NCBI GenBank assembly: GCA_030272585.1
Contig: BSYQ01000003.1
Location: forward strand, 868,001-932,000
DNA length: 64,000 bases
From: Bryopsis sp. KO-2023
Taxonomy: Eukaryota; Chlorophyta; Ulvophyceae; Bryopsidales; Bryopsidaceae
Direction: 5' to 3'
Position 1 is the first letter of the stretch. Every line of letters starts with the position of its first letter. Position numbers and translations under genes: made by a program. The notes under the pieces are model-generated. The model did not search any database. It had not been told where the DNA came from and worked only from the letters and a program-made list of their open reading frames with translations. This document shows, piece after piece, positions 2,289 to 62,692 of this stretch.

Positions 2289-3029
2289 ATGGCGTCGGTG
2301 GTCTGTTCTAGTCGCTGCCCCGCCGCCGGTCGCCGCCATAGTTTTCCGACGGCGCGCCTTCACGCGTCAAAGGTACCGACGATCTTGTCACGGTCCGCAC
2401 GTTCTTCCCTCCACACCAAGGCGGGAAGGCAACCGATTAGAAACGCCCTGGTGGCATGCACAGCAAGCGAAGCAGCCACCGAAACCAAAGAAGAGAACAC
2501 TGAAACCAAAGAAGAGAAGCCTTTACCTCCGATTTCCGTGTTGGACATTCGAGTCGGCCAGATAAAGGACGTCAAACTGCACCCAGACGCTGACACTCTG
2601 TACGTCGAATCCATCGACGTCGGAGAGGAGGAGCCGAGAACGATCGTCAGCGGCTTGGTAAACCACGTCCCAATAGAAGAGATGCAAGACAGGAAGGTCT
2701 TGGTCCTGTGCAATCTGAAAGCTTCGAAAATGAGGGGCATAACATCCAGCGGGATGGTGATGTGCGCTTCTGAGAAGGGGGATGGGGTGGTGGAGTTGCT
2801 GGAACCCCCAGAAACGGCAGAAGTGGGCGAAAGGGTATTTTTTGGGGAGGACAGCGAACAGGGGCCAGCAGAAACTCCAAATCGGATCAAAAAGAAGAAA
2901 ATGTGGGTTTCTCTGCAACCCTTGTTGAAGACCAGGGATGACAGGGTTGCAGCTTTCGATGGAACGGCCATGAACACAGCAGCTGGGCCAGTCATGGCAA
3001 AGACATTGGCAGCTTCACCGATTTCTTAA
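2289..3029 (+). CDS. tRNA-binding-domain (EMAP II/Arc1p/MetRS C-terminal-like) protein, probably organelle-targeted
   Basis: Intronless 246-residue protein starting at an ATG in a GC-rich 5' context. Residues 1 to ~55 are rich in Ser, Arg and Ala with almost no acidic residues, as in chloroplast (or mitochondrial) transit peptides. A charged linker follows with two copies of TETKEE. From about residue 82 comes a tRNA-binding OB-fold: VLDIRVGQIKDVKLHPDADTLY, then the EEPRTIVSGLVNHVP and LKASKMRGITSSGM blocks typical of the EMAP II, Arc1p and MetRS C-terminal family. The C-terminus ends with the usual KKKMWVSLQPLLKT segment. Such domains bind tRNA non-specifically and deliver it to aminoacyl-tRNA synthetases. 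No synthetase catalytic domain is present, so this is a stand-alone cofactor. The domain is certain; plastid location is inferred. Confidence 0.93.
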   Translation: MASVVCSSRCPAAGRRHSFPTARLHASKVPTILSRSARSSLHTKAGRQPIRNALVACTASEAATETKEENTETKEEKPLPPISVLDIRVGQIKDVKLHPDADTLYVESIDVGEEEPRTIVSGLVNHVPIEEMQDRKVLVLCNLKASKMRGITSSGMVMCASEKGDGVVELLEPPETAEVGERVFFGEDSEQGPAETPNRIKKKKMWVSLQPLLKTRDDRVAAFDGTAMNTAAGPVMAKTLAASPIS

Positions 3030-6000: not shown

Positions 6001-6205
6001 AATTTTTTGTAATTTTTGTTTTTTTTGCAAATGTATTTTTTTTCTTTTCCCCATCCTTTTCTTTTCCCTGATTCTCTTTTTGCGATTTCGAAAAGGTCGA
6101 TGGATAGAATTTTCCCCCCGAAATGTTCATCATATCCAAGATTTAAAAAAGAAAAAAAAAATGAATCAAAAGGCAGTGATGTAAAAAAGAGCATGGAAAG
6201 AGATA
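3030..6205. other. Convergent intergenic region, homopolymer-rich
   Basis: About 3.2 kb between the 3' ends of the tRNA-binding-domain gene (+) and EXECUTER (-). From ~4.0 kb it is dominated by poly-T, poly-A and C/T tracts. It includes a CA microsatellite near 4752-4766 and another near 5698-5711. The short open frames here encode only Lys/Phe/Ser-rich low-complexity peptides. TGTAA near 3208, about 180 bases past the stop, resembles green-algal polyadenylation signals but is weak evidence. I see no gene, RNA or mobile element. Confidence 0.6.
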
Positions 6206-33900: not shown

Positions 33901-36900
33901 TTGATACCGTTCCCTTGGGGGGTTTGGTCGGGGACAACATTTTCTTGATTCCCGAAAGAGTCAAGAAAATGTCAGCCAGGCTGAAAAACTGGATCAATTT
34001 GAGGAAGAAGCCCCCATCAGAGCGTAAAATTGCCATCTTGTTGTACGGATTCCCTCCTGGGGTGGGGGCCACAGGGACAGCTGCTCTGCTCAATGTTCCG
34101 AAGTCGTTGACCTATGTTTTGAAAGCCTTAAAAAAAGAGGTGGGGGAAAACACCTGTCCACAGCCATCTTCTTTCATACATTTTCGCTGGAATCGCTCCT
34201 TTGCAGGATTAAATCATGGGTTTAAAATTTGGTGACCAAAATGGGTAATTTTTTCCTCCTATTATAACCTACAATTGTGATGCGTTGTTGATATGTTGAT
34301 GTCATTGGTCCATATGGTTCATTTCATACGAAGTCTCTAGTCAAATCAAACAGCCATTTGCTGGTGAAACCAATGGGGTGGGTGTTTGGACTGTGTGTAG
34401 GGTTATGACCTCGGGGACATGCCAGATGATTTCGATGGGGAGGCGTTGATCGAAGCTTTGAAAGCCCAAGAAGGCCAACGAACAGTGTTCAAAGGAAAAG
34501 ATGGAATCCACACCGCAGGATCTGGCTCGGCCGAACAGTATGGAGTGCAAGCAGCGGCGGCTGAGGTCGCCCCCAGAGAGTTGAAAGAAATGTTAACATA
34601 TCCAGAGGAATGGGGCCCTTGGGAGTGGGGCCCTATTCCGTTCTTGCCAGAAAATGACATCCTCGTGCAGAGGGTAGAGAAGCAATGGGGAAAGTTGGAA
34701 CGCTACAGGTAGGCAGATGGGTATCCGTAATGGCGGGGGGGGGGGGGGACCATTACCCCCATGGATCTTGATCGGATTAAAAACAGGTGTCCAAAAACCT
34801 GTTCAATCAAGCTTCCTCATTCCTCAAACGGTAATGGTGCACCATCCACGTCATCCCCAATTCGATGCTGGAGCATGCCCTGATGTTTTTCGGTGGAGTG
34901 TTTTGCAGGGGCCTGTCTACAACTGCAAAAGGGAACTACTTGATCGGAGGCCTACAGCTAGGAAATGCATGGATCGGCGTCCAGCCGCTGTTGGGTGTTG
35001 AAGGGGACCCCATGAGGCTACTCTTCGAGCGGGATCTCACACCACACCCCCAATACGCAGCCTTCTACAAATGGCTGGAAGCCGAATACCAAGCTGATGC
35101 TGTTTTGCATTTTGGAATGCATGGCACGGTGGAATGGCTGCCGGGATCCCCTCTCGGAAACACTGGGTTTTCGTGGTCGGATGTGTTGCTGGGTAATATG
35201 CCGAATGTGTATGTGTATGCGTGCAATAATCCGTCGGAGTCCATCATAGCCAAGAGGAGGGGTTATGGAACGATCGTGTCGCACAATGTCCCCCCCTATG
35301 GAAGGGCGGGGCTGTACAAGCAATTGAGCGAAGTGCGAGGTCTAGTTTCGGAATACAGGTGAGAGGATAAGGTCAAATTGAAGGATGTGTCTGTTTTAAA
35401 AATCGCACTGGTTTGCCTTTGGTGATGTTTTATTTCATTTTATTATTATAAATATACATATTTTTTATATTTTATGTTTTTTTCTTTTTTTTTGGGGGGG
35501 GGTCCCAGTGGCTGGAAGTTGTAAGTAAGAGTGTACCATTGATTGGCTCATCGTCTTTTAATTTGATCGGTGCAGAGAGCAGCCGGCGCCTGAGATGAAA
35601 ACTTCAATAGTTCAAGCTTTGGATACGGCTGGGCTCCAGGAAGATTGCCCATTTCAGCCAGGGAAAAATGGAGCACCCGACAAGACCATCGACCCAGAAA
35701 ATGCCGGCGAAATCTCAGACGATGAGTTCATGGAGTATATGGGCCGAATCAATCAGTACTTGCAGGTAGGCAATGGACACCCCTGGAGCATATCTGTGCA
35801 TGAACACTCGCTGCTGAGGAAAGAATGTCAAAATCTATAAACGAGGATGAGCCCTGCACGCATCCATCTTTGAATTTCCCTCCGAAAACGAACCTACATA
35901 ATTGGCAAAGTCTTCCCTTGTTTTTTGTAGGTTCTGGAAAACCGACTGTTTTCTGAAGGCTTGCACGTTTTGGGAGCCCCCCCTTCGCAAGATCAATTGG
36001 CTCAGTACTTAGGGGCGTATTTTGGGGACGATATTCCTGAAGAAATCGTTGAAAAGATCAGCAGTCTACCACAAGGCTTGCCCTCATCCAGCATCAAATC
36101 CACATTGGGTCTGAACGGCAATGCTGAAACGCTGATGCCCAGAATCGAAGAGGCCATCGAAATCCGAGACTTGCTGTCGAGAAATTCCGAGGAAATCGAT
36201 GCAATAGTGCAAGCTCTGAACGGCGAGTATCTGGAGGCAGCCCCTGGGGGTGATTTGCTAAGGGATGGAGCTGGGGTTTTGCCCACCGGGAAAAACATTC
36301 ACGCTTTGGATCCCTACAGAATGCCAGGGCTTGCTGCAGTGGCTCGAGGTTCGAAAGTTGCTGAGGCAATCATCGAGAAACACTTGGCTGATAACGATGG
36401 AGTTTATCCAGAGACGCTCGCTGTGAACCTGTGGGGCCTGGATGCAATCAAGACCAAGGGTGAATCGGTGGCGATCGTTTTGCACATGGTGGGGGCAAAA
36501 CCAGTGCAAGAAGGCACCGGTAGAATCGCCAGATTTGAGCTGCTGCCATTGGAGGAACTTGGGGGGCGGCCGAGAATCGATGTGCTGTGCAACTTGAGTG
36601 GGATTTTCCGAGATTCCTTTCAGAACGTTGTCGAACTGCTGGACGACCTTTTCCAGAGAGCAGCCGATGCGGATGAGGACCCAGCACTGAACTACATTCG
36701 GAAGCATGCCTTGGAAATGAAGGGCACGGGGCTGGAAAACTCGACTGCTAGGTTGTTCTCGAATCCAGCCGGTGATTATGGGTCGATGGTGAACGAAAGA
36801 GTGGGGGCATCTGATTGGGAAAACAGTGCTGAGCTTGGGACGACTTGGGCATCCAGGAACTCGTTCAGTTATGGAAGGGGGGAGAAGGGGACCGCCAGGC

Positions 36901-38103
36901 CGGAAGTGCTGCAAGCGTTGCTCAAAACGACTGATCGGATCGTACAAGAAATCGACTCTGTGGAGTACGGATTGACAGACATCCAGGTGAGCATGTCTAA
37001 TGATCTTCAAGGGGGGTCGTTTTTATCTTTCGGAGGAAATGGATGCTAATGCGGTAGCTAGCGATGGATGTGTTTACCAGCAAATCACTGGCAGAATTTC
37101 TGTATGTTTGGAAACAGGTTTTCTTTTGGAGAAGATTAAATCGCATTTTACCCTCCATGAATTCACGATGCTGAGTTCAGGATCTATGTTTTGCTTCGTT
37201 TCATTCTCCTGTGGCATCGAAAATAAGAAACAGTGTGGGTTCTCTTGTTTTTGCAAAGGAATATTATGCCAACACTGGGGCATTGAAGCAAGCCGCTGAA
37301 ACTGCCCGTGATGGAAAAAGAGTGGGGGCCAGCATCGTGGAGACATTCAGCAAATCCGTGAAACCCACCGAACTGGATGACGTGCTGAGAATGGAGTACA
37401 GGACGAAATTGCTGAACCCGAAATGGGCTCAAGCAATGTCCGATCAAGGTTCAGGAGGAGCCTATGAAATTTCCACCAGGATGACTGCAATGGTGGGGTG
37501 GGGGGCGACGACTGGGTTTACTGATGATTGGGCCTGGGATCAAGCAGCAGACACTTATGCACTGGATCCAGAAATGGCTAAGAAACTCAGGGATGCCAAC
37601 CCTCAGGTAACAGGATAAATGCTATTTCAAATTTGGCATGCTTTTCCAATATTTATTGTTTTGTAGAAAAAGTGAACCATAGAAATTGATTCCAGAGCAT
37701 CAGGCAATTTTTTTGTAGACCTATTTATATATGGCATCCCATTCAGGTTCTAGAGGTAGTTTAGCTAATATTTAGTTTATCTCTAATTTGGAGAAATATG
37801 TTTTCATTTTTTTGGGGGGGGGGCTGGTGACTGTCTTTTTGTGGAAAATGCTTTTGGTCTGTTTCAACATTATTGGCTAAATCAAAAGCAGGCGAGTTTT
37901 TCTGGTCAGTCCATCGCTTATTTTTGGCATTGTTTCTTGTTGAATGTGTGTTTGCTTCCCCCTTTTCAATTCAGGCTTTCAAGAATACTGTGAGAAGGAT
38001 GCTGGAAGCTGCTGGTCGAGGTTTCTGGAAAACAGATTCAGAGACCATTACCAAACTCCAAACAGTATACGGCGATATTGAGGATGAGTTGGAGGGGGTT
38101 TAG
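30904..38103 (+). CDS. CHLH: Magnesium chelatase H subunit, divergent (CHLH2/bacterial BchH-like) with N-terminal extension
   Basis: Thirteen exons: 30904-31191, 31284-31460, 31789-32099, 32333-32740, 32974-33412, 33521-33701, 33853-34139, 34401-34708, 34909-35358, 35576-35765, 35931-36986, 37259-37606, 37975-38103; 1523 residues, no phase conflict. The protein is the porphyrin-binding subunit that inserts Mg into protoporphyrin IX with ChlI and ChlD, the first committed step of chlorophyll synthesis, in the plastid. Residues 1 to ~60 resemble a transit peptide; ~150-230 add a charged helical segment absent from usual H subunits. The H domain starts at IVMVTGFESFNSGLY (~233). Family blocks include GVQPLLGVEGDPMRLLF, ADAVLHFGMHGTVEWLPG, CNNPSESIIAKRRGYG, VLPTGKNIHALDPYRMPG, RPRIDVLCNLSGIFRDSF and RTKLLNPKWAQAM. 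FGMHGTVEW and VPPYGRAGLYKQL differ from land-plant ChlH and recall green-bacterial and CHLH2-type proteins. Confidence 0.96.
31573..31614. repeat. Compound (GCAT)n-(GACT)n microsatellite
   Basis: Tandem GCAT units, two TTGC units, then GACT units, inside intron 2 of the Mg-chelatase H gene. A second GCAT run lies near 63747-63763. Confidence 0.9.
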
Positions 38104-40075: not shown

Positions 40076-41856
40076 AAGAAAAGTAAGTGTGGGGACAGAG
40101 GGGGGGAAGGCCCGAAGAAAAAATTTGAAGAAAGCACAAGGAGTGTATATTTGTGGGTCAGCTTGTTATTGCAACATCTTGGTGCGAGGTTTTTTTAATG
40201 AAAAATGAGAAATTGTGTTGTCGTGAAATTTTCAGGAAGCTTCTGAACCGTACCTGGCCTCCCTCAAAATCTGGGTGGGAGTTTTGAATTCTTCTGGTGG
40301 AGAAGCTCAGTTCTGGAAAGCCGTTTCATATGTTACCCGAGGAGATGGTTCTGTTTCCTTTGATGATTGGACAGTCAGCCTGTAGTAAATGGAAGTATGC
40401 TGAATATCAAACCCACCACGACAAAGAGGTGGTTGCTTGCTGCTGTTTGATCCAAAGCTTGGCGAAGACCGGAGGTGCAATGGAAAGAAACCTTCCTGAG
40501 CTGTGGGGGAGGTGGGCTCTTTCTGGAATTTAACAATGTGGTGCAAGTGTTGGAAAACAGGGGAAAAAAAGAAGCAATGGGAGATTTTTTTCACCGTTTC
40601 TTTATCGTATTTACCAGGGGTATTTGTCAATAGGGTTATGCAACGCTGTGGGCTATGTCCACAGCTGTTCTGTTTTTCGCTGAGGGAAAAACAGAAAGAA
40701 AAAACCCCAACCAGAATTGACAGTCAATATGGGATTGAGGTCAGGACCTGCTGCTCCAGCAGTGGCCTCATGTGTGCATCCATGTTGGGAGAAAGGATGT
40801 GAGACAGGAAATGTTGGTTCCAGCGAAAAAGAGTGAGGATTTGGGGGACGTACTTCAACTGGAAGAACAAAGTATGCTTACGTTGGGAGAAGTGATGTGG
40901 GAAAAGATATGTTGGATCAAGTGGAATAGTGATTGATGGGAAAAAGAAGTAAAAAAGGGGGTGGGGCTAGCATGTCTAGCATGTTTTCTTTAGGGGAAGG
41001 GGGATCTGAGAGTTTGGTTTTGTTTTGATGACAAAAGAATTGATCCAAGCTGACAGGAGGAAAGGAAAAAAAAGATCATATTTGGAAAGGAAAAAGGAAA
41101 TATAAATCTATCCAAGTTTGGTTTGGGGGTTGTAGGTGGGTGTGCAAAAACACCATCTGAACAGAAATAAGGTGTTCAGCCCCATCATCCGACTGGGAGC
41201 GACTTTGGTCATTAGTTGGGGAAGAGGTAAGCTGTAGAATTCATTCATTCTCTGAAATGACCCCCTACCCCCCCCAAAAAAAAATAGAAAGGAAAAGGGA
41301 AAAAAAGACCTGGCTGGACCATGGTTGGGAAAAAGTATGGACTGAATTGAAGTGTATATTGTTACATGTCAATATTTTGGAAAAACAAAACACCAAGAAA
41401 AAAAAAGTTAGATTTGGAGGCTAGTCGCGCAAGGTTTTTGCAAGGTTTTTTGGTTTCATTTCATTTTCTTTTCTCAGTCACTGAATTAAAAAAGGGGGGT
41501 TGGGGGAGGGGCCAGTCCTGAAACTGTATACATACATACTGTATACATACTGATGCATGTACAAAAGAAAAATCCTTTTAAATTTAAAGTTGCATTTGGA
41601 CAAGCAATCTCCTTCTACTCCAAAAAGCAACATTTTTTTGCCAATGAATCACCCCCAAATCCAGTGGAGTACCTGAACCACACTTGGATGGTGGTGATTT
41701 TTTGATGGTGTGAAGAGGGTTGAATGATACAGAAAGACGACCTCAGTCGTTGAAAGAGAAATACCCAACAAAACTAAACCAGTTCGAGATAAAATCGACC
41801 CTGGCGGCGCCACGAAGGCTCGAATTCGAGATGGGATCGTCGTATTAGATATTGTT
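40076..41856. other. Intergenic region between tandem + genes
   Basis: About 1.8 kb. The + strand is G/A-rich through 41.4 kb, as expected for the 3' flank of a + gene here. A C8-A9 junction lies at 41268-41284 and a TATACATAC-type repeat near 41525-41552. The last ~100 bases before 41857 are balanced and probably the F-box gene promoter. No gene seen. Confidence 0.55.
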
Positions 41857-42882
41857 ATGGGCGACAACGGGATTCTGGAGTGGGACCTTCCAGAAGGGGT
41901 GTTGGGTGTTATTCTTGAGATTCTCCCTATCAAGCAAATGGCGAGATGCTCTTGCGTGGCGAAAAGTTGGAGGCATATCATTCAGGAGGATTATTTCAGA
42001 AGGAAAGTCAGGCTGGAAAGAGCTTGGCGAGATTCAACGATCGAACCGAAGGAGCTGGTGCACGATCCGACTTGCCGGCTCTGCGCCAAAAGTTCAGCCA
42101 AGGGAGGGGATTCAGGGAGCTTTATCGTGGCAAACATCCGAACTGGCGGCTTCACCAAACACAATACTCCTCCGGTGGATTTGTGCTTTTGTTTCATTAG
42201 TGGGATGCTTCTTTCCATTGGTGGCCCGACAACGATTCGCGTTTTGGAAACCCCTAAACTGAACGAAATAGCTACGTTTCAGGTTCCATTCACCCCGAGG
42301 TTTATGTTGAATGTTGAAGATAGTGTTGCGATCATTGGTGCTCAAAAGTTTGGTTTGTGGAAGAAATTCGAATGGACGTGTGTTGCGATGTTGAGAACTG
42401 ATGTTGAAAACTGCAAGGGAAAGATCATTCATTGCGTTGCTTGGGACAAGGAAACAAGCACATTGGTATGTGGATTGGAGGGAGGAGGCCTCAAGCTGTG
42501 GAACCTGGCATCCCTCACTCTTGTTCAACTTCTTAAGATGCATTCCAAAGCTGTGCTTGGTGTTGATGTAAACAAAAGCACAATCGTTAGTAGCTCCAAG
42601 GACTCTTGGGTTAAAGGTTGGCGGCGAGAAACCGGGGCATACTTCTTTGGACTGAAAACTTCATTGGGTGTGAATAATGTCGTGGTTTTGAACGGAGAAA
42701 GGCTTGCTTGTAAAGCGTCCAATTATGATGTGGACGTCTGGGATATTTCGGAGGGGCATTGTGTGCGAAGGTTTCAAACTGACCAACCTGTTGCGTTCGT
42801 GTATTTAACGAAGGAAAAACTGACAATAGTGCAGAAGTGCTACAAACTACTTGAATGGGACTTTGCCTCTTTTATCGGGTGA
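41857..42882 (+). CDS. F-box and WD40-repeat protein, intronless
   Basis: 341 residues from an ATG in context GTTATGGGC. Residues ~8-50 are an F-box (WDLPEGVLGVILEILPIKQMARCSCVAKSWRHII in pattern: LPxxVL..ILxxLxx..xxxCxxVxKxW), which binds Skp1 in SCF ubiquitin ligases. The rest forms degenerate WD repeats: IHCVAWDKETSTLVCGLEGG then GLKLWN; VLGVDVNKSTIVSSSKDSWVKGW; ERLACKASNYDVDVWD. These likely make a small beta-propeller that recruits substrates. Cys62-type residues (CRLCAKSSA) between the two parts are not a clear zinc site. The gene has no introns, unlike most neighbours. Substrate unknown. Confidence 0.85.
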   Translation: MGDNGILEWDLPEGVLGVILEILPIKQMARCSCVAKSWRHIIQEDYFRRKVRLERAWRDSTIEPKELVHDPTCRLCAKSSAKGGDSGSFIVANIRTGGFTKHNTPPVDLCFCFISGMLLSIGGPTTIRVLETPKLNEIATFQVPFTPRFMLNVEDSVAIIGAQKFGLWKKFEWTCVAMLRTDVENCKGKIIHCVAWDKETSTLVCGLEGGGLKLWNLASLTLVQLLKMHSKAVLGVDVNKSTIVSSSKDSWVKGWRRETGAYFFGLKTSLGVNNVVVLNGERLACKASNYDVDVWDISEGHCVRRFQTDQPVAFVYLTKEKLTIVQKCYKLLEWDFASFIG

Positions 42883-47681: not shown

Positions 47682-50600
47682 ATGGGGGCGCTGAAATGGC
47701 CTCGTGAACTGTTCAGGGCAGGTGGGATCCCTGTCTTTCCTGTGGACAAAAAAAGTTGATTTCTTCTCGGGACTTTTTCGGGGAAAGAAAGGAAGAAAGA
47801 CAACAACGGAATCCATGCACAGCCCACCGAACGGATATTCTCTCAGCAACCCGCCTCATGGTTTCGCTTTTCGCTGCACCGATTCGCGTGGAGCTTGTTC
47901 ACTAGCTTTCGACCACCCAATGCGATTGCTGTCTCATATTTTTTGCAGTTGGCTGGCTGGGAATCGTCCTGTTGCTGTCGGACGGCGTCTCTGCGAGGGC
48001 GCTGAGATCCGAGGGGGAGGATGTGAACAGCCAAGGGGGTGGGTTCCTGGAAGATGAACTTCCATTGACGATAGTCGTCACCACCCCAACGAAACTGTCG
48101 TCGGAACGTGAAACCAGCCTTACAGTGCGGGATCAACAGGCGATCACGGTGGGGGTCGCAAAATCCAAGCGCGCGAAATTCACACGATGGACTACAAAAA
48201 ATGAAGAAGCAAACGAGAAGCTTCCTACCTGTTTCCTCTTGCATCCAATTATCCTCCTTATCAAACTCACACTTCAATTGTTAACTGATCAGATCTGATC
48301 AATTATTTTTTGGGGAGGAAAACCCAATTTAAACAGATTTCTTGAGTCCAAATTGAGTCCATGATGGTCGTAATGTTCATAATGAACCACCAAGAATAAT
48401 GGGGTTTTTTTCTCAAAATTTCTTCCCAACTGTTGAGATTGGCAAATTCACTGGATAGTAAAAGTTCAGGCAAATAAAACTGAAATTCAGCCTTTGGAAA
48501 TCACCCATCATAATTTTCGTCACATCATGGATTTTCAAAATGCTTAGAAGAAAAGTGTTCATTTTAGGTTGTGTATTCGAGGTCAGTCATCGCTCTGGGT
48601 CAAGACTTTGGGACCACCATTCTTCCAGATGACAAGGTAAAAATGACTAAACTTGACCTGCTCAACTTGACCTCAATTTTCCAGCAGGTTTTGTTCGACT
48701 GCAAAAGGAGGCGTTGTTTTATGAAACATATTTTTTTTTCACGTCAGGGGTGGATTCAGTCTGCATTGCATGTTGTTTTTCCTAAACAACATAATAATAA
48801 TACTATTCTTTCAGTAACAAAATCCTTTGTAAAAAACATTTGGAACGGAAAAAAAAAACCAAAACAGCCTCACTTCACGATCGAATCCAGCAAAGTGAAG
48901 GAAAGTCTCGGTGTCTCTATATCTAGTCTCTATATCAGGAGCATAAAATCCAATTTTTTGGGAAATCACCTAGCTAAAAAAAAACTCTTAGAAAGCACGC
49001 AAGTCAATACATGAGTTTTGTGTGTGCGTTTCTTTTCTTTTCTTTAAAAACAGGTGCCTTTCACTTTGGAGCCCAGTGTTCCAGGACGGTTTCGATGGGT
49101 GACCACCTACATTGCTCGATGGGATCCGGAAGGAAGCTGGCCTTTAGACTCAAAAATCAAATTCAAGCTCAACAGCAAACTCAAAACACACGACGGTACG
49201 ATTTACATAATTATTTTTTTAGCAAACTCAAAATACTCAATGGTACGATTTCATAGATTTCTTTTTTTTCTTTTCGTGATGACTCATTATTTTTGCTGTG
49301 CTTCCGATTGTATTATTCTGCAAGAGTACGGCAAGTTGTTTATACTTTCGTTCATCAAGGAAGTAAAATGACGTGAATTTTTTTGTTTTTTTTTTGTTCA
49401 GGCATTTTGTTTAACACCACTGGCATTTCTGATTCAATCACACTTACCACACCTTCATTGCGAATGTCTTTCGCTGGCGTGAAATCGGAAGCAGCTCAAA
49501 ACTTGACGGATGGAAATTGGACACCCAATTCTGGAATCAGGGATGATGTACTGCCTGAAGTACCGCCCGACGGTAATTTCTTTCAATATCATTTTTAAAT
49601 AGAAACTGCAGAATATTTGAGAGTTCGGATTGTTTCATTTTCATGGCCGATTTCTGTTGTTTTTCTGAGTTTTTTTTTTGCAATCATGCATATCCAACGG
49701 TAAGGTCTCCTGTCAGCTAGCGATTTTTTTTTCTGAATTCTGTTTTGATTTGTTTCAAAATGAAGGCATTCTTCAACTCACATTCAATCATGATGTATCG
49801 ATCAGCGTTCTGACCAAGGAACTTCAAGTGAGTTCGGCAAAAAAAATATATAATAGGAAATCCAAAAACCTGACGATTGTTTGGCATGAGATTGAAAATG
49901 AACGAATAAATTCACAATGGTGTTTTGCTCTGGCTCAAAATTCTTTGTGGAAGTTTTTTTTCTTTTGTTATATTTTTTTTCCCTTTGAAATTGAAGCTTT
50001 CAAACATGATGTAGAGTAAGGTGGATATTGTACATCGTTTTGTTTTTATTTTTCTTAAGAATTCTTGTGTTTGTGATGAATTTTATTACTTTTTGAATTT
50101 TATTTTATTTTATTTTCGTACTTTGTATATATGCTGAGACTTTTTCAAATTCAAATTGAAAACTGATATTTTCTTCATGGTAGATTTTGGACGAGAATGA
50201 AACAGCCATCAGCAGTCTCAAGGCTGTTGTATCGCCTTGCGAACCAGACTCCTTTATATCACCAATTTTACCCTGCATTAAGGTATGTGCGGTTTTGGCT
50301 GATACCTCAAAAATAGGAGTATTTGAAAAAAGGAAAACAAAACAAAACATCCAAGTTCTTGAATACACAATTTTGTCTTGAGAATTTGCAAGTCATTTTC
50401 TGATTTTGTTCTTTTGCTGTCGATATCAAACTGGTAACAAAACTCTTGAATTTGCTTTATTTTAATTTATTTGTTGTTAGTATTAATATATTTTTTAGAA
50501 GGGGGGGGGGATGCTGAAAGAAGGGTATTTTTAATGTGTTTTTTTCTATTCGTCAGGATGTGCAAAAAAACAGAGAATTATCTAACTGCTGGATCTTATT

Positions 50601-53600
50601 CAATGGAGGATATTTTCCTTTGCATTGAAAGTGAATTTTCGTGGAAAAGTAAAAAAAAACTTTGTTATGATTTTTTCAGTGTGGATCCAATCGGAAAGGA
50701 AAGAAAACAAACCCCGAAGAAAGCTCATGTGTACAAGTATCCATCGACGGCGAATTAGAAATTCAAACAGAGTGAGTCTTAAAAAGCAAAAAAAACAACA
50801 ACTATCCTCTTGAAAACAAGTTGTGATGGACTGCTGTTTATTCATCAAATACTCAATTGTTACAAAAGAGAGAGGGCTTGGAAAAAAATGCTTTGTGTGT
50901 GTGAGTTGGTTTTCTTTTTTCTTTTGTGAACTCAGGTACAATTTATTTCTTCCGAAAGGCATTATGTACAGTAAGAAAGCTGGGCTTCTGACTAAGAAGA
51001 AAACAGCAAAATTTGGCGGGCTGAGGACTTTCCGAATTCCTCTGCGGGCAAAACAGAGGTATTGTCGAAGCATTGTTCGACATCTTATGGTTTTTTCAGG
51101 GAACACAAAAAAAAGAGACTCAAGCTTCAAAAAGAAACAAAAAACATATTTTTTTAAAAATGCCAATGAGTAAAAACTTTCCAATGAACTTTCCTGTTCC
51201 TTTCTGTTAATCTGATGAATACGAAAATATTTTCGAAAGAATTTTTGTTCAGGAAACAAGAAGCAAAAGCAGAATTTGAAGTTTGAAGTTTGAAATCAAT
51301 TGGGTGACAGGGAGGTTGGAAAAGCAACTTGTGTGTGTGGTGTTTTTTTTTCTTTTTCTCAGAGTGAGCAGCAGAGTCCTTCGATTGAATCTTCCACATG
51401 GGTTGGAAGAATCAAACAGCAAAGGAGTTGAAGCGCTGAAGCAACAGTTTGAGTTTATCAGCACCGAAACTGAGGAAAAGGTGAAAATAAATATATATAA
51501 AAAACCCCTTTCCCACATCAAGAAAGTAACTAGCTGCCACCCTTTAGTCATCATTCCCTGAAACAAATGTTTGATTTCGAGGTCAGTCAGAAGGTATTTC
51601 ATATCTCAACATTAGTGAAGGCCCTGGTTTGGTGTTGTCAAATTCTATGAAGGGGGAAATTTCGGATGAGGCCACCCTCCCCCCCCCAAAAAAAAAGAAA
51701 AGAAAAAAAGCATAGAAAATGCGATGGAAAATTATTTTTTGGGAATGTGTAAACGGTTGCCTGTTTTTGATTGATCGATTTCTTTTGACTTAATTGAGTT
51801 TCGACACATTTATGGTCTCTTTTTTTTGTTGAATTTTGATTGTTCAGTCATTTTCTTAAATCAATTTTTTTTTTCTGTAACGCCATTTGTCTGTTTGTTT
51901 TCTCGAGCAGATCGATTTTGATATGACCCTCAAGAATAAAGGGACTTTGGAAATCAGAGCTGAATTGATGCCATCAACAGAATACAGGTAAAAAATAAAG
52001 CTTGAATATACGGCGAAAAAAGAAGTAAAAAAAACCAAACTTGTGAAATAGGATTCCGCTCATTCTACTTTCTAATCACTCGGGTGGTGTTTGTTGAAAC
52101 CACGATGATCTGTGTGTAGACCTGATTCTTTGCTCTTTCTTCAATGATCCATGTTGGGGAAAAAAAACGATCTTTCTTTTCTGGGAATTTTGGATGTTTT
52201 GGCATGTGCATAATGAAAAGCTGGTTGATTTTATTCATATTCTTTTTTTTTAATTTCTAGGTTGAACGTGATCGAATCGAACGATGTGTTGGATGGCTTT
52301 GGACTTCCGCTGCTTGGCTCATCTACTTTGATGGAGACTGTGGGGCTGGAAGATAAATTTGGTGTTGTTGATGCAGCAAAGTAAGGCCCAACAGGAATGG
52401 GAAAATGCATTTCGATAATAGAAGAGCAAGATATATTTTTCTTTTGATACATGATACAACCTTTCGATCACTTGTCTTATTGAATTTAAAAAGTGGAATA
52501 AATAAACAAAAGAGCAATATTTGTTGTCTGGCTGCAAAAAGGGGAAAGCAAAAAGAGTGAGAAATGGAAAAGAAGGAAGAAAGCTGGTGGAATTCGACTG
52601 TGAATCTGGGGAAGTCGGTTTTATTACGAGGGCATGGGCTTTCAGAACTCAATTGCAGAGTTCTCAGCCTTGATGCAACACAATCTAATAGAAAATAAGA
52701 AAATAAGAATACTGATATCAAATTCCTGTGTCGGAAAAAAGAACGCCACAGTTGGTTGTTATTTCTTGTATTTTTTCGAGTTTTTTTTTTTTCCGTTGTG
52801 AACTCAGTGGGATGATTTTCGAGGCTGGCGAAGACTGGGGTAAAAAATTGGTTGCTGCATACATTGGCAATTCAGTAAAAGCCAAATGCCCTGGAGTGCC
52901 ACCAGCCACTGTCAATGCTTACAGAGTCCTCGGTCAAAAAGAGTTAAAATCTGCCCTTGGAGCTCAACTGAATGGTGTTCCTTCCAAGTCCATTGCCGAT
53001 CGATTCCGAAGTCCAGGTCAGACATATTGATCATCTCAGAAAAAATTCTACAAATAAAATAGATCGAATTATGTACATCTTTTTATGTGCATGTACTTTT
53101 TAATCAATGCTTTTGAACATTTAATTCTGTTTTGCATTTTTAGCAATGCGTTCGGGCAATTTTCTGGTTCCTAGATTCCATTTCTTATGCCCTTTTCAAA
53201 TTATTGATATTTCAAATCTTTTTTTTTTCCAGGGCTGTCATTCACTCGTGAGGGAAATGATAAGCTTGGAGAGTTGGCCGAAGCCGACATATCCAAGCTG
53301 TTGAAGCCCAGCGGCATCGTATTATTTGAACATTGCGTGAAGGGATTCTACCAGTAAGCCAAAAACCTGTTTCATATTCTATCGTTCGAAAAAAAATAAA
53401 TTGCAATTTTCAGACTGAGAGCTCCCCTGAAACGCTCCCAGTCATTTTCTTTTTCTTTTTCTCGCTTTGTCATTATATTAAACTTTTGTTTCACTTTGCT
53501 TTGTTAAATTTTTGGTTCTTTTTTGGTTTGTTTTGTTTTTCCCCCTCCAGGAGTCGTATCGATGTGAACATGGTGACTGAAACTGATTTGCAAGTGATTG

Positions 53601-56600
53601 CGCTGGGCTCCTCCGTGGGTTCCAGTCTAGTTTTCGTAACTTCCATGAAAACTGGAAAGCCTGTCAGTGGGGCCAAAGTCATGCTTTACAGGAATAGCTT
53701 CAACCGATTTGAGGTGAGTTCTGTTAAAACTAAAATACAACCGTCAAAATTAGGCTTTCGTTGACCTGGGTTCGAATCCTGATGAACAGTCATTTTTCTT
53801 TTCGAAAAAAAGTCGGTCCAAGGAAATCAATGGCTTGGAACACCTGATCATGACATGCAAATATGTAGAGATGTATATTTGCCTGTGCCCCCCCCCCCCC
53901 GAAAAAAAGCCATCAACATAAATCCACGACTTACCGCCCTTTCTCATTTTCCTTTGTGTGTGTGTGCAGGAAGTGAACAAACTGGACCCCCAGGTCATCA
54001 AACCTGTTGCTCATAGCAAAACCAATGAAGACGGAATAGCTCTGTTCGACGAATCCTTCTCCGAGATGCATTTGCATGTCGAGCACAGGAAAGATGCAGT
54101 GTTGATGCCGGGCATCCGCAGCGGGCATTTCAACGGAGGCCCCGACGATGTCGCCAGACTCGTTTTGGACAAGAAATTAGCCCAACCTGGTCAATCAATG
54201 CACATCAAAGGTGATATTCCCAATCAATCCATTAATCCATTATCCACACTGCCCCCACACGGATGTATATACATTATCCTTAGTTTTTTCCGGTTCTGCT
54301 CGATAGGTTTCAATGGTTACCACAATTGCCTTGCAGTTCTTTGTATTGTGATGCCCATCCCCGGCCGGCACTCGGAAAAACATGAATTTGCTGATTACTT
54401 TCTTTTTTTTCTTTTTTAGGCTATGTGCTGAAACCTACCGGGAAAGACGATTTGAGCTGGGAGCCCAAGCCTCTTGTCAATCCAATCGTCAAGCTCAGTC
54501 CATCCTTGAACCCAGACGAAATCACCCCGGACCAATTCTCAGTAGAAATGGATGAGAAATTTGGAACTTTTGAGCTGGAAATCCCCATCCCTGAGGGTGC
54601 CCCTCTCAAAGAGTACTCCGTTGATTTGCTCAGTGAAAATTCTCTGAATGATTACTTCTATTTGACTTCGGCGAGGTTCACTGTGGCGGACCCCAGGCCG
54701 CCAACCGTGGAACTGACAATCGATGCACCTTTCTGGGTAAGATATTTTATTTTTTTGGTGTTTTTTGTCTCTATCGACAAAAGCACCGGCTTTTACAGGT
54801 GCCACATTCTTGTGGTAATTTTTTTCTTCACAAAACTGTCACAATTTCTGGTTTTGATATTTTTTTTGAATTTTTTGGTTTTGAAATGGTTGTGTTGCAG
54901 GCTCGTCCCAATTCCACGGTTACAATCGATTTGACTGCTGAAAGCTTCATTGGATCTGCCGTTGGTGATGCTGAAATTACCTTGAAATGGAGTATTCCTG
55001 GTGAGAGAATTTCCCATTAGCTCAATCAACTTTGATTTTTTTTTAAATACAGAGATTGAACTAATAAAACAAACCAAGGGTGAATGTTCGTGGCGAAATC
55101 GGCCATTTTTTGGTATTCTAATCAACAGGTCCCTCCAGTTGGAAAATAGCCCGAGGATTTTCCAACTAACTAGTCGTTTGTGGTGTGCTCTACAGGCTCT
55201 GAAAAGAGTTTGGACGGTGAGATCGAGGTCAAAACAGATGCCTCAGGGAAAGGAAAGGCCGAGATTGATTTGTCTGACCTGGAAACCATCCCCAAGCCTG
55301 GTCAAACTTTGACAATCGACGCTACCTGGGTTGGACCCACAAGAGAGCTCATTGAGAAATCGACATCTGTAATGTACGGGATTTTCTGATGATTTGCTGA
55401 AAAATCTGGTCAGACAACGAGCGAAGTAAAAGTTCCATGGGAAAACTAACATCTTATATATTGTAGTGATTTTTTTTCATGTGTGTGGAAAATCAGGTTG
55501 GAGGTGGCTGATGTGAAGTTGAAATTCAGACGGACCGTAGCGACGGATTTTCCTGGGCAAGAATTTGGGGTCCTGGCGGAGCTGACGGATTTGAAAGGGG
55601 TGCCCTTCGAGAAAACAAACCTGCTTTTGGAATTGAAGCAGTTGGATGAATCAATGGAGGAGAGGCCACTCGCCTCCGACTTGGAGCCTTTGGATGGGAG
55701 CATTGTGGATTCGTGTGAAATCGCATCAGGTGTTGTGTCCTTGCTTGTTGGTTTTTTCCCCTTTTTGTTTTTTTTTTGGGGGGGGTCCATTGGGATGCCT
55801 ATGAAATATATGACCAATTTGGTGACTAATTTCCCCTCGTTTGCTATTTTTTCAAGATTCGGAAGCGTTTGGATGTCGATTTTCTCTTCCTGATGTGGGG
55901 GCTTTTGCTTTGGAATCCTGCATTGAGGTTCCAGAGGAGGGAACTGAAAAAGACATCATGGTTTGCACCAGAGTCTTTCTGGGAAAAACTGCAAAAGAAT
56001 GGGAAGCACGAGGGTAGGGCCGTTGTCTCGAATCCATAAATATCTTCTGACTTTCTTTCTTTTTTTTCCTCTGTTCTTCTTTATTATTTTTCTCCAACGT
56101 TGCTAATTGTGATCTGGATACGAAGGGACTCTTTTTTTCCACCATTACTGTTTATATATTTTTTTTCTTGATTCGGAGGATTTTTTCTTTTTTTTCTAGG
56201 AACAAAAAGGTGTGCTGGATCTTCCCTGCATTAATTTTCTTTTCATAAGGCCCTGTCCATTTTTTTCTTTTTATAAGGTATCGGGAAAGCACCAGGAAAC
56301 CCCCATCATTTTTGTTTTTGTTTTGGGGGGGGTTTGTGTGTGAAATTTCAACCATTTTTTTGCAGGCCGATCGAAGATCACATCCTGAAACTGGGTTTCC
56401 AGAAGCTGGATGCAGCTGGGTCCAAAGTCGGGGGAACAGCGAAGTTTGGAATAGAAAATCCTTTCCACAACGTGAAGGCCATTTTGATGTGGGGGAGCAA
56501 ACTCGGAACGCAACACAAGGTAATAATCCAGTGTGGGGTCCGTGGGGACCCAAGTTCAAACCCGCTTTTCCTGTAAAATTTCCCAAATTTACTTTGGATG

Positions 56601-59600
56601 ACACAGCACAAAAAAGAAATGGCACATTTGCCATCAGAAATCCAGGTTTTGTTTTTTGGGGTTTTTTTGGGTTTTTTGGGTTTTTTTTTTTGGGGGGGGG
56701 GGGGCGGGGTTGGTGAGCGAATGTGAATGAATCGTATGGAATCTCAATGAACCCCCTTTTTGTGTTTTTGTTTTCTTTCTTTTTCGACAGATGATTTCAC
56801 TGGAGGATTTTTCATTCAACGAGGTGGAAATCGAACTGGGTAAAAATTGCGTGGCAGGGTGCAGCGTGAAATTCGCTGTCTCCATCCCTAGACAGACCTC
56901 GGGGGCCATTTTGGAAAGCAAAATTCCGGTGTCGAAGGTTTTTGATCTGGCAATGCCTCACAGCACTTCCTATGATGCAGACATCACAGTGGAACAAGTG
57001 AGCCATTTTTTTTTCTTTTCCTGAAAACAGACTATTGTTCGAATTTTTTCCGAAGCCATCAAAAATGCCTTCGGAATGGATGTCTTTCCTGCTCCTTTTT
57101 TGTCACATTGATGCAACCTCATTTTGCTGTTTTTGTGGGGGCAAAACTGAAAAATGTAGATTTAATAATAAGTCGAGCGAAACCAAGGCAATGGCTACTT
57201 TGACAAAAAAAAAATCAAAGGTAGCCATTGCCTCGGTTTCGCTCAACAGAAGTTTGAACAGAGTTGGGATTGTGGCAAAAATCCGCACCCCCCCCCCCCC
57301 CCCCCCTCCTCAGAAAAAAAAGTGGAAAAAAGAAGCAGCATGGACCAACCGAAAAGGGACCAGTAAATACTTGTACAAATTTTCAAATTTGTTCATGAGT
57401 AGTTTTTTTCAACCATTGGGTGCAAAACTCTTCAGGATACTTCTTTCGACGTGGACCTGTCCTTCCCAGACCTGGCAGCAGACGAAAACAACGATTTCGT
57501 TTTGCCTCCCGGCGAAACCACAAAAATCGAAGTGCAAATTCAAGAAGGAGGACCAGGGGAGGCCGACGTGACAGTGGTGGCGGTGGACAAGGCAATTTTG
57601 GATTTGATCCCTCATGCACTACAGGACGTGGCGTCTGATTTCGTTTTGGATTTCACGGGCTCGTTTGCGATGGAGGAGTCTGCTGAATATCTGGTTGCGC
57701 CATCTGCCATCAAAAGCTTGATTCAGGATTTTGCGAGGAGGAAAAAGTTGGATCCCTGGTTCTATCCAGTGTTAGAGGTGATTGATAAATGGGTGCATGA
57801 AACAACGTACATTATCGGTGCATTACAGTTGTTTCTTTTTCTTTCGATCACCATTTTGGCAGAAAGAGTAACCATTTTGTTTAATTTTTATTTTTTTGGA
57901 TTGATCTGTTCGTTCAATCTGGGGTTTTCACCAACAAGCAAGAAACACCTTTCAGAAAAACATTTAAAATCATAGAAATAGAGTTGGTTGACTTACCCCC
58001 CCCCCCCCCCCCCCCCCCCGAAAAAGAAAAACACTACTGGATGCAAGACAGATCATGCATCAATAACATCGAAAAAGAAGAAGAATCTTGGTTTATTGAA
58101 TAACAGCAACGAAAATTTTATTTGTGGGTTTTATAGGCAAGACATGGTCGTGGCGTTGACTTGAGCGACGAAGAGTATCTGGAGCAAAACAGCGAATTCA
58201 TCACTTCATATGAAACGCACAGCTCTTTCGGTGAGAGCTTCCTTCCTCTTTTTTTAACCTTCGAAAAATCTTCTTTTCCTCTACTGCTTTTTGTTATTCG
58301 TTTATTTGTTACTCAGAATTGGTTATCACCTCCATGCTACGAGAGGAATCACACCAAAACATATCTATTCCATGCAAAAATCCAAAGCTTTTCCCATCTG
58401 ATTTCCAAGAATGCTGAAAGAATTAGAAAAACACGAAGATCACACAAAGCTGGGAAGGGTTTTTCGGAAATGAGCGAATGTGTTATCCAGGGGGTGGACG
58501 TGGGCGTGGGGGTGGTTTTGCCACTGTTCGGACATTTGCCAGGAGCGACGCGTTGGCTTTCAGCAGTAATGCTGCTGTACAACCTCCCGCAGCAGAACCT
58601 TCCACGGCTGTCTTCTCAGTGGGAACCAAAGGACGGTCTGCCTCTTTTGGACCCCCTCCCCAATTGAGTGCCAAAATTGCTGTTGCTGATGATGCCATTG
58701 GAGGAGCAGGGTTTGCTGCAGAAGGCCCAAAGATTTCCGTTCGGGTTCAAAAAGGCTTCCTTTCCACACCCCTGTTTGAATCGGGGGTTACAGAAGGGGG
58801 AATTGCGGCAGTCAATTTCACGGCTCCTGATAACTTGGGGACGTTCATTGTGAGGGCCTACGCTTCCACAGGTATGACTAACCAGTAAATATATATATCG
58901 AATTGATCGACCCCAGGTGGAGCCCTGTTTTTCTAAATAACATATTAATGCACATATCTGAAAGGCATTGGTTGGCGTGCATTTGGGGTCTTTGTCATTT
59001 AGCCTGAAAGAAGTCGATTTTTCTCATTACTGTTCGCAGGCACCGGTCGATTTGGGAATGCGGAAGAAGAGCTGATTGTTCGACGGGTGATTTCTTTGAC
59101 ACCATCGGCCCCCAGATTCGCAAGAGTGGGGGATGTATTCGAGGCAGGTGCTGTGGTGACTGTTTCTGGATCTTCCAAGAATAGACCAAGTGTTTCGGTC
59201 AGAGTTTTGATGGAGGGTGAAACTGGGGAGAGGTTGGAATTGGTGGATGGTGGTGAAAGGACATATAATGCCAGTGATGATGGGACCGATGAGATCAGGT
59301 TTCGATTCAGAGCCAAACGAGTGGGGGATGCGACTTTCAAAATTATTGCAGGTGAGGTTTTGTGGATACGCTGCATGCAGGCAAAACTTAATTTGTTTGG
59401 TGATGTATATAGATGTATTTTCGTGAACTGAAAATTGGTCATCCTTGAATGCGATGGGAGTGCTGCAAAATGCATTGCTTTTTGTCAGTGACCCTGTTAT
59501 ATACCCTTTCCTAAGCGTTTTTTTTTTTAAATATTAGTACTGAATAGTAGTAATATTTATCAGTATTTTTGGTTGCTCAACAATATGTATATATATTATA

Positions 59601-62600
59601 GTATATAGAGAGAGCTGAACATGATTTTCTGTGTCCGAAAAGATGTGGATGGAGCGGGCGATGCATTGGTGATCGATTTTCCAATAGAAGGATTGCAAGA
59701 GGCAGTCACGGTGGCTTCTTCTTTTGCGATCGATGGAAATTCATCCCAACAATGGACCGAAGGCCTTCAATTGCCGAACGCCGTTCCAGGAAGCGGGGAT
59801 GTGAAAATTCAAGCTGGGGTCGGCCGGATGCCTGTCATTCTGTCCCTTGCCGAGGAAATCTACTTGCAAAACCCAAAGTGAGTGCTCGGCTCCCGTTTCT
59901 TCCCTGATTTTTATTGTCAAATTTCTCTTTCTTCCATCCAATGAACAAAAAGAATTTGAATTTTTTATTTTTATTTGAAACAATTACAAATAACATATGC
60001 TTTTGTTTTAATACATTTACAATGAAGCAAAAAAAGATGAAATCTGTGTTGTACGATTTGTTCTTAATTTATTTTTATTTTTTCTGCTCATTCATTGGCT
60101 TCAATTTCTTTTTTTTTTTCTTGTTTTTGTAAAGTTTCTTAATTTTTAATTTTTCATGAATTTGCTCCGTCTTTTTTTACATATCATGTGCATAACGGTT
60201 CCTTTTTTTTCTTTCCCCTACAGCCATGAATGCCCGCTCCATCCGCACCACTCCTTGGCTCTATCGGCCATCCCTTTCATCACCGAAACCTACAAAGTGC
60301 TGCACTTGGACAGAAATGCTCTGGCTCCCCAAACCGGAGATATCTTGAGCGGAATGCTGACTAATTTGACAGCTGCTATCGAATCATTGAAAGAAATGAC
60401 CACCGATAGACTCGGCCTCACAAGAGACAACATAGAGCGGTGTCGACGAGAAGGAAGCGTTCGTTCCTTTCAAAGAACCCCATCAATCCACTTGAATGCC
60501 CAAGGGGTGTGGCTGCTGGCGACTCTCAGAGCAGATATCGGAAATTCTTTACTGGAGGTATGTGTTTGTGTTGATTTTCTTCATTTTTTGTCTTTTTTTT
60601 TAAAGATATTGGATTGTGGTGGGGTTTTCAAAAATTAGTTTGGTTATGTACATTTGAAAAACAAGGTTTGAAACGAAGAATCAATCATGATTGTGGATGG
60701 TGGTCGTGCTTTGGAAGAATAATTCTTGGTGAATGTATTGTGCAGGATGCAGAGGGGACAAGGTCGAATTCGCTGGCGTCGTTCGAGGAAACATGGACTT
60801 CAGTGCTTTCACAGGCTCTTGCGATCGAAGCTGTTAGGTCCAGAAACAGCCGATTTCCATTTCCCATCAGTGCAGGCACTGTGGCTGTGGCAAGGTAACA
60901 AATGCAAATAAATAAAAAGAATCAAGACGAATCGAACCGTAACAATTTTGTGTTTTGTTCGCATTTTCTAGAAGGTTGTTTTTCATTGTATCTTTCTGCT
61001 TCCTCGTTTTGGCGATTTTTTCAACATCGTTTGTGCGCTGTTCTGTCGCAGATGGGCTCTCGGCGGAAATTGGACCCCTCCATTTCAAATTGATGAAACC
61101 ATCGAGCGAGACTTGTCCATGCAACGATTGTCGGAAGAATTTGACAATTTGAGTGTCGTTCATCAAGCCTACTACGTCCATGCACGGTTGGGAATGTTTG
61201 ATGGCATCAATCACCCTGATGTGCACAAGGCCATCAATACCTGGACGAACAATTTCAGAGTCGGTGGCAGAACCGCATACATCGCTGCTTTCCATGGCTC
61301 AGCCACTCCAGCAAGCAACATTGGAAACTCCCTGGTTTTGTCGGTGATGACGAAGACTGGGATAAGAAATGCTTTGGTGGAGAAGCTGGCAAACTACATC
61401 GGCAGCCCTCCGGTTGGGCCCTATAGAGTGCGATCGTTTGGGAATTTCGACAAGGTGGTGACGATGGTTTCTTTGAGGGACTACGATGTGGCACGAGGGA
61501 GCAATCAGCCAGACCTCGACTTGAAAGTCAGAAGCGGTGAAAAAGATCTTTTGGAGGTACACAGACGTTGCTGCCAAAATATGGGTCCTATGCTCTTCAC
61601 ACACTCCATAGTTATTTCCCACAAGAAATTTCAAATCTGACCCGTTGAGGTTTTTGACGCTTTTGACGACTTTGTGACGTCTTTGTGACGATTTTGATCC
61701 CGAGGTTATGTCTGTGGCTTTCAGGTTCTGTTTCAAGGCAACAACCAGGTGGTGGCATCATCCTCGACCCCGTGGGAAGCCCTGGCCTCTCCTCCCGAAC
61801 CCCTCGAATTCCAAGCTCAAGGAATTGGCGAGGTGACCCTGGCGGCATCCCTCTCATTCGTGCCAGCAAAACTCCTCCCATTCCCGACCTACAGAGGCAT
61901 GTTCATCGAACGGAGCATAACGATTTCGGAGTCGGAAAACGGGGCCTCGCTGAAGACCATCCCTGTGGGCTCCGTGGTGGAGGTTTCTGTTCAGATGACC
62001 ACTCCCGATCGACTGGATGAGACCACTGTCAGGGTTTTGATGCCTGCTGGATTGGAACCCATCGACCCTAACGTGGATGGCTCAGGCAATTTCTGCCCAG
62101 TGCCGTTTTACTCATTCTTTGGTGGAAATTCCTTCTTTTCTTTCTTTTCATGTCCTGAACAGGTATGTCGCCCCCCCCCCCCCCCAACACACACATCCCC
62201 ACTTTTTTGTTTTCTGATTGGCTCACTTCACATGTGGAATTAAAAACATCATCATACCCAGCTGGAACTTTTTGCTCTTTCTTTCCTGTATTATCCACCT
62301 TATCCACCACACATATTTGACCTTTTTTTTCTTGGTTTTTCTCTTAACAGGAGACTCGGCCTTCAGTCGTGACATTCAACTACAGAAGCTTGACCGCGGG
62401 GACCCACACTCTCAGCTTCCGAGCAGTTGCTGCGACTGCTGGTGAATTCGCTCTTCCCCCAGTCAGGGCATTTGTCAACGAACAGCCTGAATTGATGGGA
62501 CTGAGCAAAGCGGGCAGTCTCACCATCTGTACTGGAAAAGATTGCCAAGCTGTAGAGGACTCATTGCCCAAGATACCCAAAATGTGTCCAAAGAACTGCA

Positions 62601-62692
62601 ATGATAACGGAGGGTGCGATTTGGACACCGGAAGTTGTTTTTGCTTGCCTGGCTTCGGTGGGGAGGACTGTGGTCAATACACAGCCGCGTGA
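47682..62692 (+). CDS. Secreted alpha-2-macroglobulin, bacterial type, lacking thioester motif, with C-terminal EGF-like domain
   Basis: 33-exon model, ~2174 residues: 47682-47721, 47949-48148, 48568-48636, 49054-49195, 49402-49572, 49766-49827, 50184-50282, 50680-50771, 50936-51058, 51363-51480, 51911-51987, 52261-52380, 52808-53016, 53233-53353, 53551-53713, 53970-54210, 54420-54736, 54901-55000, 55196-55373, 55497-55729, 55857-56013, 56366-56519, 56791-56997, 57436-57777, 58137-58230, 58491-58871, 59040-59351, 59643-59877, 60224-60557, 60746-60894, 61052-61556, 61725-62162, 62351-62692. Every junction is in phase. Signal peptide (GWLGIVLLLSDGVSA) at ~15-29. Macroglobulin blocks: TDLQVIALGSSVGSSLVFVT, TGKPVSGAKVMLY, QPGQSMHIKG (~675), VTVVAVDKAILDLI (~1185), Gly/Arg-rich GGGRGRGGGF (~1278), APDNLGTFIVRAYAS, PRFARVGDVFEAG. 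Where GCxEQ is expected (~1588) the sequence is NHECPLHPHHS. Six-Cys EGF-like end. Expected to act as an extracellular protease trap. Confidence 0.92.
55137..55167 (+). repeat. Perfect 11-bp inverted repeat in an alpha-2-macroglobulin intron
   Basis: AGTTGGAAAAT at 55137-55147 and its exact reverse complement at 55157-55167, with a 9-base loop. It ends about 28 bases before the acceptor of exon 55196-55373, so it could hide or expose the branch-point region in the pre-mRNA. Confidence 0.85.
57175..57244 (+). repeat. Long near-perfect hairpin in an alpha-2-macroglobulin intron
   Basis: Left arm 57175-57203 and right arm 57215-57244 are reverse complements except for one mismatch and one extra G, around an 11-base loop of C plus A10. 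The arms read GAGCGAAACCAAGG... and ...CCTCGGTTTCGCTC. The intron lies between exons 56791-56997 and 57436-57777. Confidence 0.88.
57996..58019 (+). repeat. C24 homopolymer followed by an A-rich tract
   Basis: The longest of many C-then-A junction tracts in the window, lying in the intron between exons 57436-57777 and 58137-58230. Confidence 0.85.

Follow-up and report, generated by a model that had tools for sequence, protein, structure and literature searches.

In a 64,000-nucleotide stretch of Bryopsis DNA (hereafter the window), a 33-exon gene at 47682-62692 (+) on balance probably encodes a secreted alpha-2-macroglobulin (A2M) of the bacterial Type I lineage, the one linked to PBP1C. Judged from its sequence and by analogy with a bacterial protein, it would act as a non-covalent, bait-triggered protease trap, and it appears to be one of at least 17 duplicated loci. 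The family is a set of natural replicates for testing if an A2M can function when the thioester is gone and in what way the bait determines specificity.

Gene model and domain layout

Rebuilt from the sequence, the gene has the same span (47682-62692) as the in-phase, intron-filled 33-exon model of the preliminary description. All 32 introns are GT-AG, and the 6525 coding bases are in phase and give 2174 amino acids, the sole stop being the last codon. The motifs listed in that description were recovered in the rebuilt protein: VDKAILDLI, GGGRGRGGGF (from residue 1277), VRTF (1289), APDNLGTF, AGVGRMPVIL and a cysteine-rich end. The proposed secretion signal is also present, judged by eye, as a signal-peptide-like start in exon 1 and the start of exon 2 (47682-47996) with probable cleavage after VSA; inspection by eye found no membrane anchor at the C-terminal end.

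The HMMER search against Pfam suggested earlier places three domains expected of the bacterial-type A2M superfamily above their curated cut-offs (all features are on the + strand). They are A2M_BRD (32.7 bits, E 1.1e-7, cut-off 22.7; residues 1026-1188, exons 22-24, 56409-57606, ending at VDKAILDLI), A2M (34.8 bits, E 1.4e-8, cut-off 21; residues 1377-1451, 58790-59182, containing APDNLGTF and PRFARVGDVFEAG) and, on the C-terminal side, bMG10 (68.7 bits, E 7e-19, cut-off 26.2; residues 1973-2104, exons 32-33, 61896-62479). The N-terminal region (exons 2-14, 47949-53353) has an Ig-like/MG1-like start and weak similarity to bacterial N-termini. It is followed by bMG3/MG2-like macroglobulin domains (exons 15-20, 53551-55729) in the expected order, both under cut-off (19.0 and 18.5 bits), where the family profile scores 16.8 bits against the Myxococcota protein L031. 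A variable bait-like segment, assigned by its position between A2M_BRD and A2M, spans residues 1248-1358 (exons 25-26, 58143-58735). The MG9/thioester-domain region (exons 28-31, 59643-61556) was placed by profile alignment with bacterial MG8-TED, and an EGF-like module with six cysteines (residues 2140-2170, 62585-62677) is suggested by its cysteine spacing and by weak EGF profile matches under cut-off.

A phmmer search of the PDB with the whole protein (E 0.01) returned no sequences, no NCBIfam family matched the C-terminal 789 amino acids, and none of 104 pattern matches in viral contigs was a relative of the family. AlphaFold gave poor models of exons 31 and 29 taken singly (mean pLDDT 35.7 and 46.1). 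An in-house gene finder trained on the window gene itself, and therefore a loose consistency check that is not independent, predicted 37-57 exons across a longer span with 27-31 of the 33 exons exact, and 25 of 33 exact after retraining. At the sequence level, the gene model finds stronger support in 16 further loci, which contain collinear exon-sized pieces and have intron positions and phases in common.

A multi-copy family and its bacterial relatives

The gene had been described as a single one. In the 91,088,769-base genome (28 contigs), at least 30 matches to the bMG10 exons group into at least 17 loci: the window gene on contig C3, nine on C12, two on C7 and one each on C1, C6, C8, C10 and C18. 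Six of the nine C12 copies are packed in about 0.22 Mb (C12:1.538-1.760 Mb). When 18 stretches were compared with the window protein by tblastn, 16 contained a paralog in collinear pieces, and a neighbouring stretch (L017) and the animal-type gene (L030) were without a family member. A small gene finder, with the window gene and similarity as its training input, supplied the 16 paralog models. Pieces of intron remain in some of them, and the N-terminal part is largely absent, as each stretch covers just 9.9 kb. At one locus (L022, on C8), nothing ahead of window residue 1407 matches the family, and this copy may be a relic.

The modelled part includes 20 window introns, and 19 of them are matched (within two columns, same phase) in at least two of the 16 paralog models. 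The eight best kept, at residues 789, 822, 881, 1063, 1586, 1747, 1916 and 2062, recur in 9 to 13 models, and the intron at residue 1698 has a counterpart in none. These common positions and phases indicate that many introns predate the duplications, and duplication is the best reading of how the family multiplied.

The presence of bMG10, together with the absence of Pfam matches to the animal domains TED_complement and A2M_recep, bears out the assignment of the window protein to the bacterial type. We scored a profile of the family against 13 proteins (L032, a near-copy of L031, was left out), a thin and biased sample including six loci from one query-seeded scan and five from the plasmid matches listed. 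The highest scores were those of Myxococcota L031 (138.2 bits), Aminicenantes L033 (112.7, a partial protein) and Gemmatirosa (98.6), followed by Treponema (60.3), Verrucomicrobiales (53.7), Prevotella (52.5), Rhizobium L044 (41.7), Chitinophaga (34.1) and Deinococcus (32.6). At the low end were YfaS (19.9), YfhM (8.7), Azospirillum (8.3) and the genome's own animal-type A2M (-1.9). The gene neighbouring the A2M has PBP_1c as its best match in the three cases tested (L031, L033 and L044), and of these only the L031 match exceeds the curated cut-off; no PBP1C match was found among eight window ORFs scanned with Pfam. By profile score, the family lies nearest, among the 13 proteins compared, to the Myxococcota and Aminicenantes A2Ms, which carry CxEQ and are linked to PBP1C, and neither YfaS nor the animal-type protein of this genome comes as close. 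A closer kinship with thioester-less YfaS does not hold, given 19.9 bits versus 138 and 113 for these two CxEQ-bearing proteins, and their closeness makes loss of the glutamine with retention of the cysteine in a Type I-like protein the likelier history.

Type I bacterial A2Ms (L031 and L033, with E. coli YfhM as the studied case) have the domain order bMG3-MG2-A2M_BRD-A2M-TED-bMG10, as does the window protein, in which bMG3 and MG2 are weak. They differ in carrying a CxEQ thioester motif (GCTEQ, LCLEQ or GCLEQ), which the window family lacks, and, being bacterial, in having no introns, whereas the window gene is intron-rich. L031 has no EGF match and differs from the window protein in matching Big_5 and TED_complement; YfhM itself is distant from the family. 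Type II A2Ms (P. aeruginosa MagD and E. coli YfaS) resemble the window family in having no CxEQ while keeping a bait. However, YfaS is far less similar to the family than L031 over the whole profile and in the TED, where it scores at shuffle level, and MagD, which acts with mag operon partners, is likened to the family by trait and not by sequence. The animal-type A2M/TEP of the same genome (C1:5.27-5.28 Mb) shares the superfamily and the A2M domain with the window protein but has GCGEQ, TED_complement (235.8 bits) and A2M_recep, all three absent from the window protein; conversely, it has no bMG10 within the 876 amino acids scanned. This gene, at G000:C1:5270000-5287800 (L030, L039), reads MPSGCGEQ, and no TED_complement match was found in the genome outside its exons.

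A quick-mode tree of 23 rows, including 10 of the 17 family members and carrying a long-branch warning, recovers the family as one group (support 100) on a stem of 1.9 changes per column, with end branches of up to 1.4. The family joins Rhizobium L044 (90) and then L031, L033, Treponema and Gemmatirosa (88); neither join is starred. The L044 A2M (1989 aa, beside a PBP1C-like gene; 3143-9109 on a Rhizobium plasmid) has bMG10 and no EGF match, and it too has lost the thioester, in the reverse manner: its cysteine is gone and EQ is kept, where the window family keeps the cysteine.

Thioester site, bait-like segment and EGF-like tail

Aligned profile to profile, the MG8-TED region of the family matches that of six bacterial proteins with a probability of 99.4 and a score of 169.7 over 443 columns. 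Controls scored far lower (at most 19.7 in 30 column shuffles, 25.3 for the reversed profile, 20.1 for the genome's own animal-type protein and 18.9 for YfaS), and profiles of single proteins gave 34.0 for YfhM, 52.3 for Treponema and 106.3 for L031. According to this alignment, a thioester-domain region is present between MG8/9 and bMG10 in the window protein. The alignment puts HECPLH on YGCTEQ of L031 and Cys1589 (60231-60233) on the thioester cysteine.

That the thioester is missing, as first proposed, is true of the whole family: the last-place glutamine is present in none of the 17 members, and the cysteine is kept in 16. The six-residue site reads HECPLH (window), KECPID, HNCPIS, HECPIR, HECPIS, HKCPID, HECPID, YQCPMD, HLCKPE (L025) or LRDWIS (L020). 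A second cysteine of the domain, Cys1659 (60441-60443), is present in all 16 rows with letters there, L025 having a gap. Both positions are filled in 15 of the 17 members, and the family has 18 conserved cysteine columns in all. These patterns point to a Cys1589-Cys1659 disulfide as the replacement of the thioester; against it are L020, which lacks Cys1589, and L025, which lacks Cys1659. A scan for C.EQ found CxEQ in 8 of the 13 compared proteins (DCTEQ in Gemmatirosa and Chitinophaga). The CxEQ-less proteins that align at the site all lack the cysteine (L044 SPYGPTEQ, Azospirillum PGGAEQ, YfaS WGGVIN), and L035 and L036 have no alignment there.

The only CxEQ in the window gene is CPEQ at 62151 (residues 2058-2061), within bMG10 and outside the thioester domain. 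We rejected this CPxQ place as a relocated thioester: CxEQ occurs there in only 2 of the 17 members, the others reading CPDQ (11), CPVQ (2), CPAQ (1) and CATQ (1), a second cysteine (2039) is conserved alongside, and the glutamine codon is an exon-end CAG, which splice donors favour.

The bait-like segment, from the end of A2M_BRD to MG7, has the lowest conservation among the nine parts of the protein compared. Across the 21 pairs of seven close paralogs, its mean identity is 0.40, compared with 0.95 for MG7, 0.86 for MG8, 0.85-0.86 for the TED, 0.89 for bMG10, 0.82 for the tail and 0.66-0.70 for the upstream MG domains and BRD. With 16 proteins (all but L022; 120 pairs), it is 0.27 versus 0.43-0.62 elsewhere. 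The segments of several copies contain differing runs of G, P or DY. The glycine-rich stretch followed by VRTF had been read as a bacterial block; this was a misassignment, as both motifs fall within the segment that varies strongly between paralogs. The true counterpart of the bacterial VRgDFrATAFF is VRVQKGFLSTPLF (1360), about 70 residues past VRTF.

We calculated dN/dS for eleven pairs, six of them close (L023/L026, L021/L028, L024/L029, L026/L021, L026/L027 and L021/L027). In the close pairs, values were 0.03-0.13 for MG7, 0.13-0.21 for bMG10 plus tail and, in five of the six, 0.14-0.54 for the TED, which is identical in the sixth. These codon comparisons show purifying selection outside the bait. 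For the bait, dN/dS was 0.31-1.02, not clearly above 1, and dS was high in most pairs, so that misalignment, relaxed constraint or a mere linker also fits; strong divergence is established, positive selection is not. Elsewhere, L024/L029 reached 0.54-0.69 in MG8, the first TED half and BRD, and L018/L019, which have identical baits, reached 0.80-0.85 in BRD and the second TED half on few differences. In L023 and L026, of the C12 cluster, the aligned TED codons are identical while the baits are 35% identical, which suggests gene conversion outside the bait.

The EGF-like end described for the window gene recurs as a cysteine-rich tail in all 17 models, with six cysteines of EGF spacing (the last is missing in the L013 model) and two more. 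Four of six tails tested (L021, L016, L025 and L020) exceed a Pfam EGF cut-off; the window tail (21.5 versus 24.3) and that of L014 fall just short.

Proposed function, alternatives and genomic setting

We propose that a protease in the surroundings, be it bacterial, a predator's or the alga's own, would cut the exposed bait, and that the domains would then rearrange and close on the protease, retaining it by shape without a covalent bond. The model for this is MagD of Pseudomonas, a thioester-less A2M that traps protease non-covalently by experiment, as stated in the cited part of PMC5764988; trapping by the family is proposed because MagD can trap. A2M baits are described as largely disordered, and their cleavage as the trigger of rearrangement, in the cited part of PMC4498604. 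The Cys1589-Cys1659 disulfide would occupy the former thioester place, the EGF-like tail might serve assembly, surface binding or clearance, and duplication with bait divergence could yield a set of traps for different proteases. We tentatively extend this to a fuller history, as a whole less likely than not, in which a bacterial periplasmic trap armed with a thioester passed to a photosynthetic protist, where a disulfide at the original cysteine replaced the thioester, an EGF-like tail was added and the gene expanded into secreted non-covalent traps with diverging baits and the rest held constant. If true, an organism other than an animal would possess an anti-protease arsenal of many genes, together with a separate thioester A2M of animal type in one genome.

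The main alternative is a structural, adhesive or matrix protein that no longer traps proteases, with the TED as a disulfide-stapled spacer, the variable segment as a linker and the EGF-like tail binding a surface or partners. Thioester-less relatives with animal-type architecture include both a junction protein, Drosophila Mcr, and a protease trap, chicken ovostatin. The precedent of Mcr, the missing thioester, the EGF-like tail and the richness of the variable segments in glycine, proline or DY would all suit a structural role, but variability peaks exactly where a bait is expected, MG7 is the most conserved part tested and the TED is constrained in most pairs, and we consider such a role somewhat unlikely. 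As for the site itself, the exact retention of Cys1589 in 16 of 17 members could also reflect a reactive free thiol, forming for example a mixed disulfide with a captured protease. This is improbable, given the equal conservation of the second cysteine and, as weak evidence, the even number of conserved cysteine columns. The thioester might also lie in an exon missed by this gene model, which is predicted from DNA, or the gene be a relic. We regard such an artefact as very improbable: sense-frame GCxEQ was found neither in the span of the window gene nor in any of the 16 paralog loci; the six sense CxEQ strings of those loci fall outside the TED site; NPNHECPLH, the nine residues round the exon 28/29 join, shows a gap-free alignment with bacterial EYPYGCTEQ; and the proteins are under constraint.

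Acquisition from bacteria, as first proposed, is plausible for the trap favoured here; the tree that bears on its donor and age has support of 88-90, a long stem and a long-branch warning. It is possible, though less likely than not, that the family is instead an old eukaryotic inheritance, with bacterial-type A2Ms present in early eukaryotes or received via an endosymbiont and lost in most groups. The deep divergence within the family, seen in its stem and end branches, and the shared introns indicate that it is old in this genome, whereas the A2M holders named in the cited part of a review from 2026 are metazoans and Gram-negative bacteria (PMC12939704). Among the literature matches listed (titles and starts of abstracts, few subscription journals covered), none dealt with A2Ms of the bacterial type from an alga or any other protist. 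The CAGE complex, considered as a protist A2M-like cage, was set aside, as the cited part of its description reports single domains to be fold-similar to A2M (PMC12485934). The presence in an algal genome of at least 17 loci of a bacterial-type family, together with a single animal-type A2M, is relevant to the spread of such traps between kingdoms.

Fragments of a gene for magnesium chelatase subunit H, interrupted by introns, also lie in the window at 34835-37046 (+) (CobN-Mg_chel, 219 and 348 bits; partial BchH match) and indicate that the host is photosynthetic. An ORF at 2319-3029 (+) has a tRNA_bind domain (113.7 bits) and is presumably EMAPII/Arc1p-like, and a 384-codon ORF at 41728-42879 (+) has an F-box (30.6 bits) and WD40-like matches.
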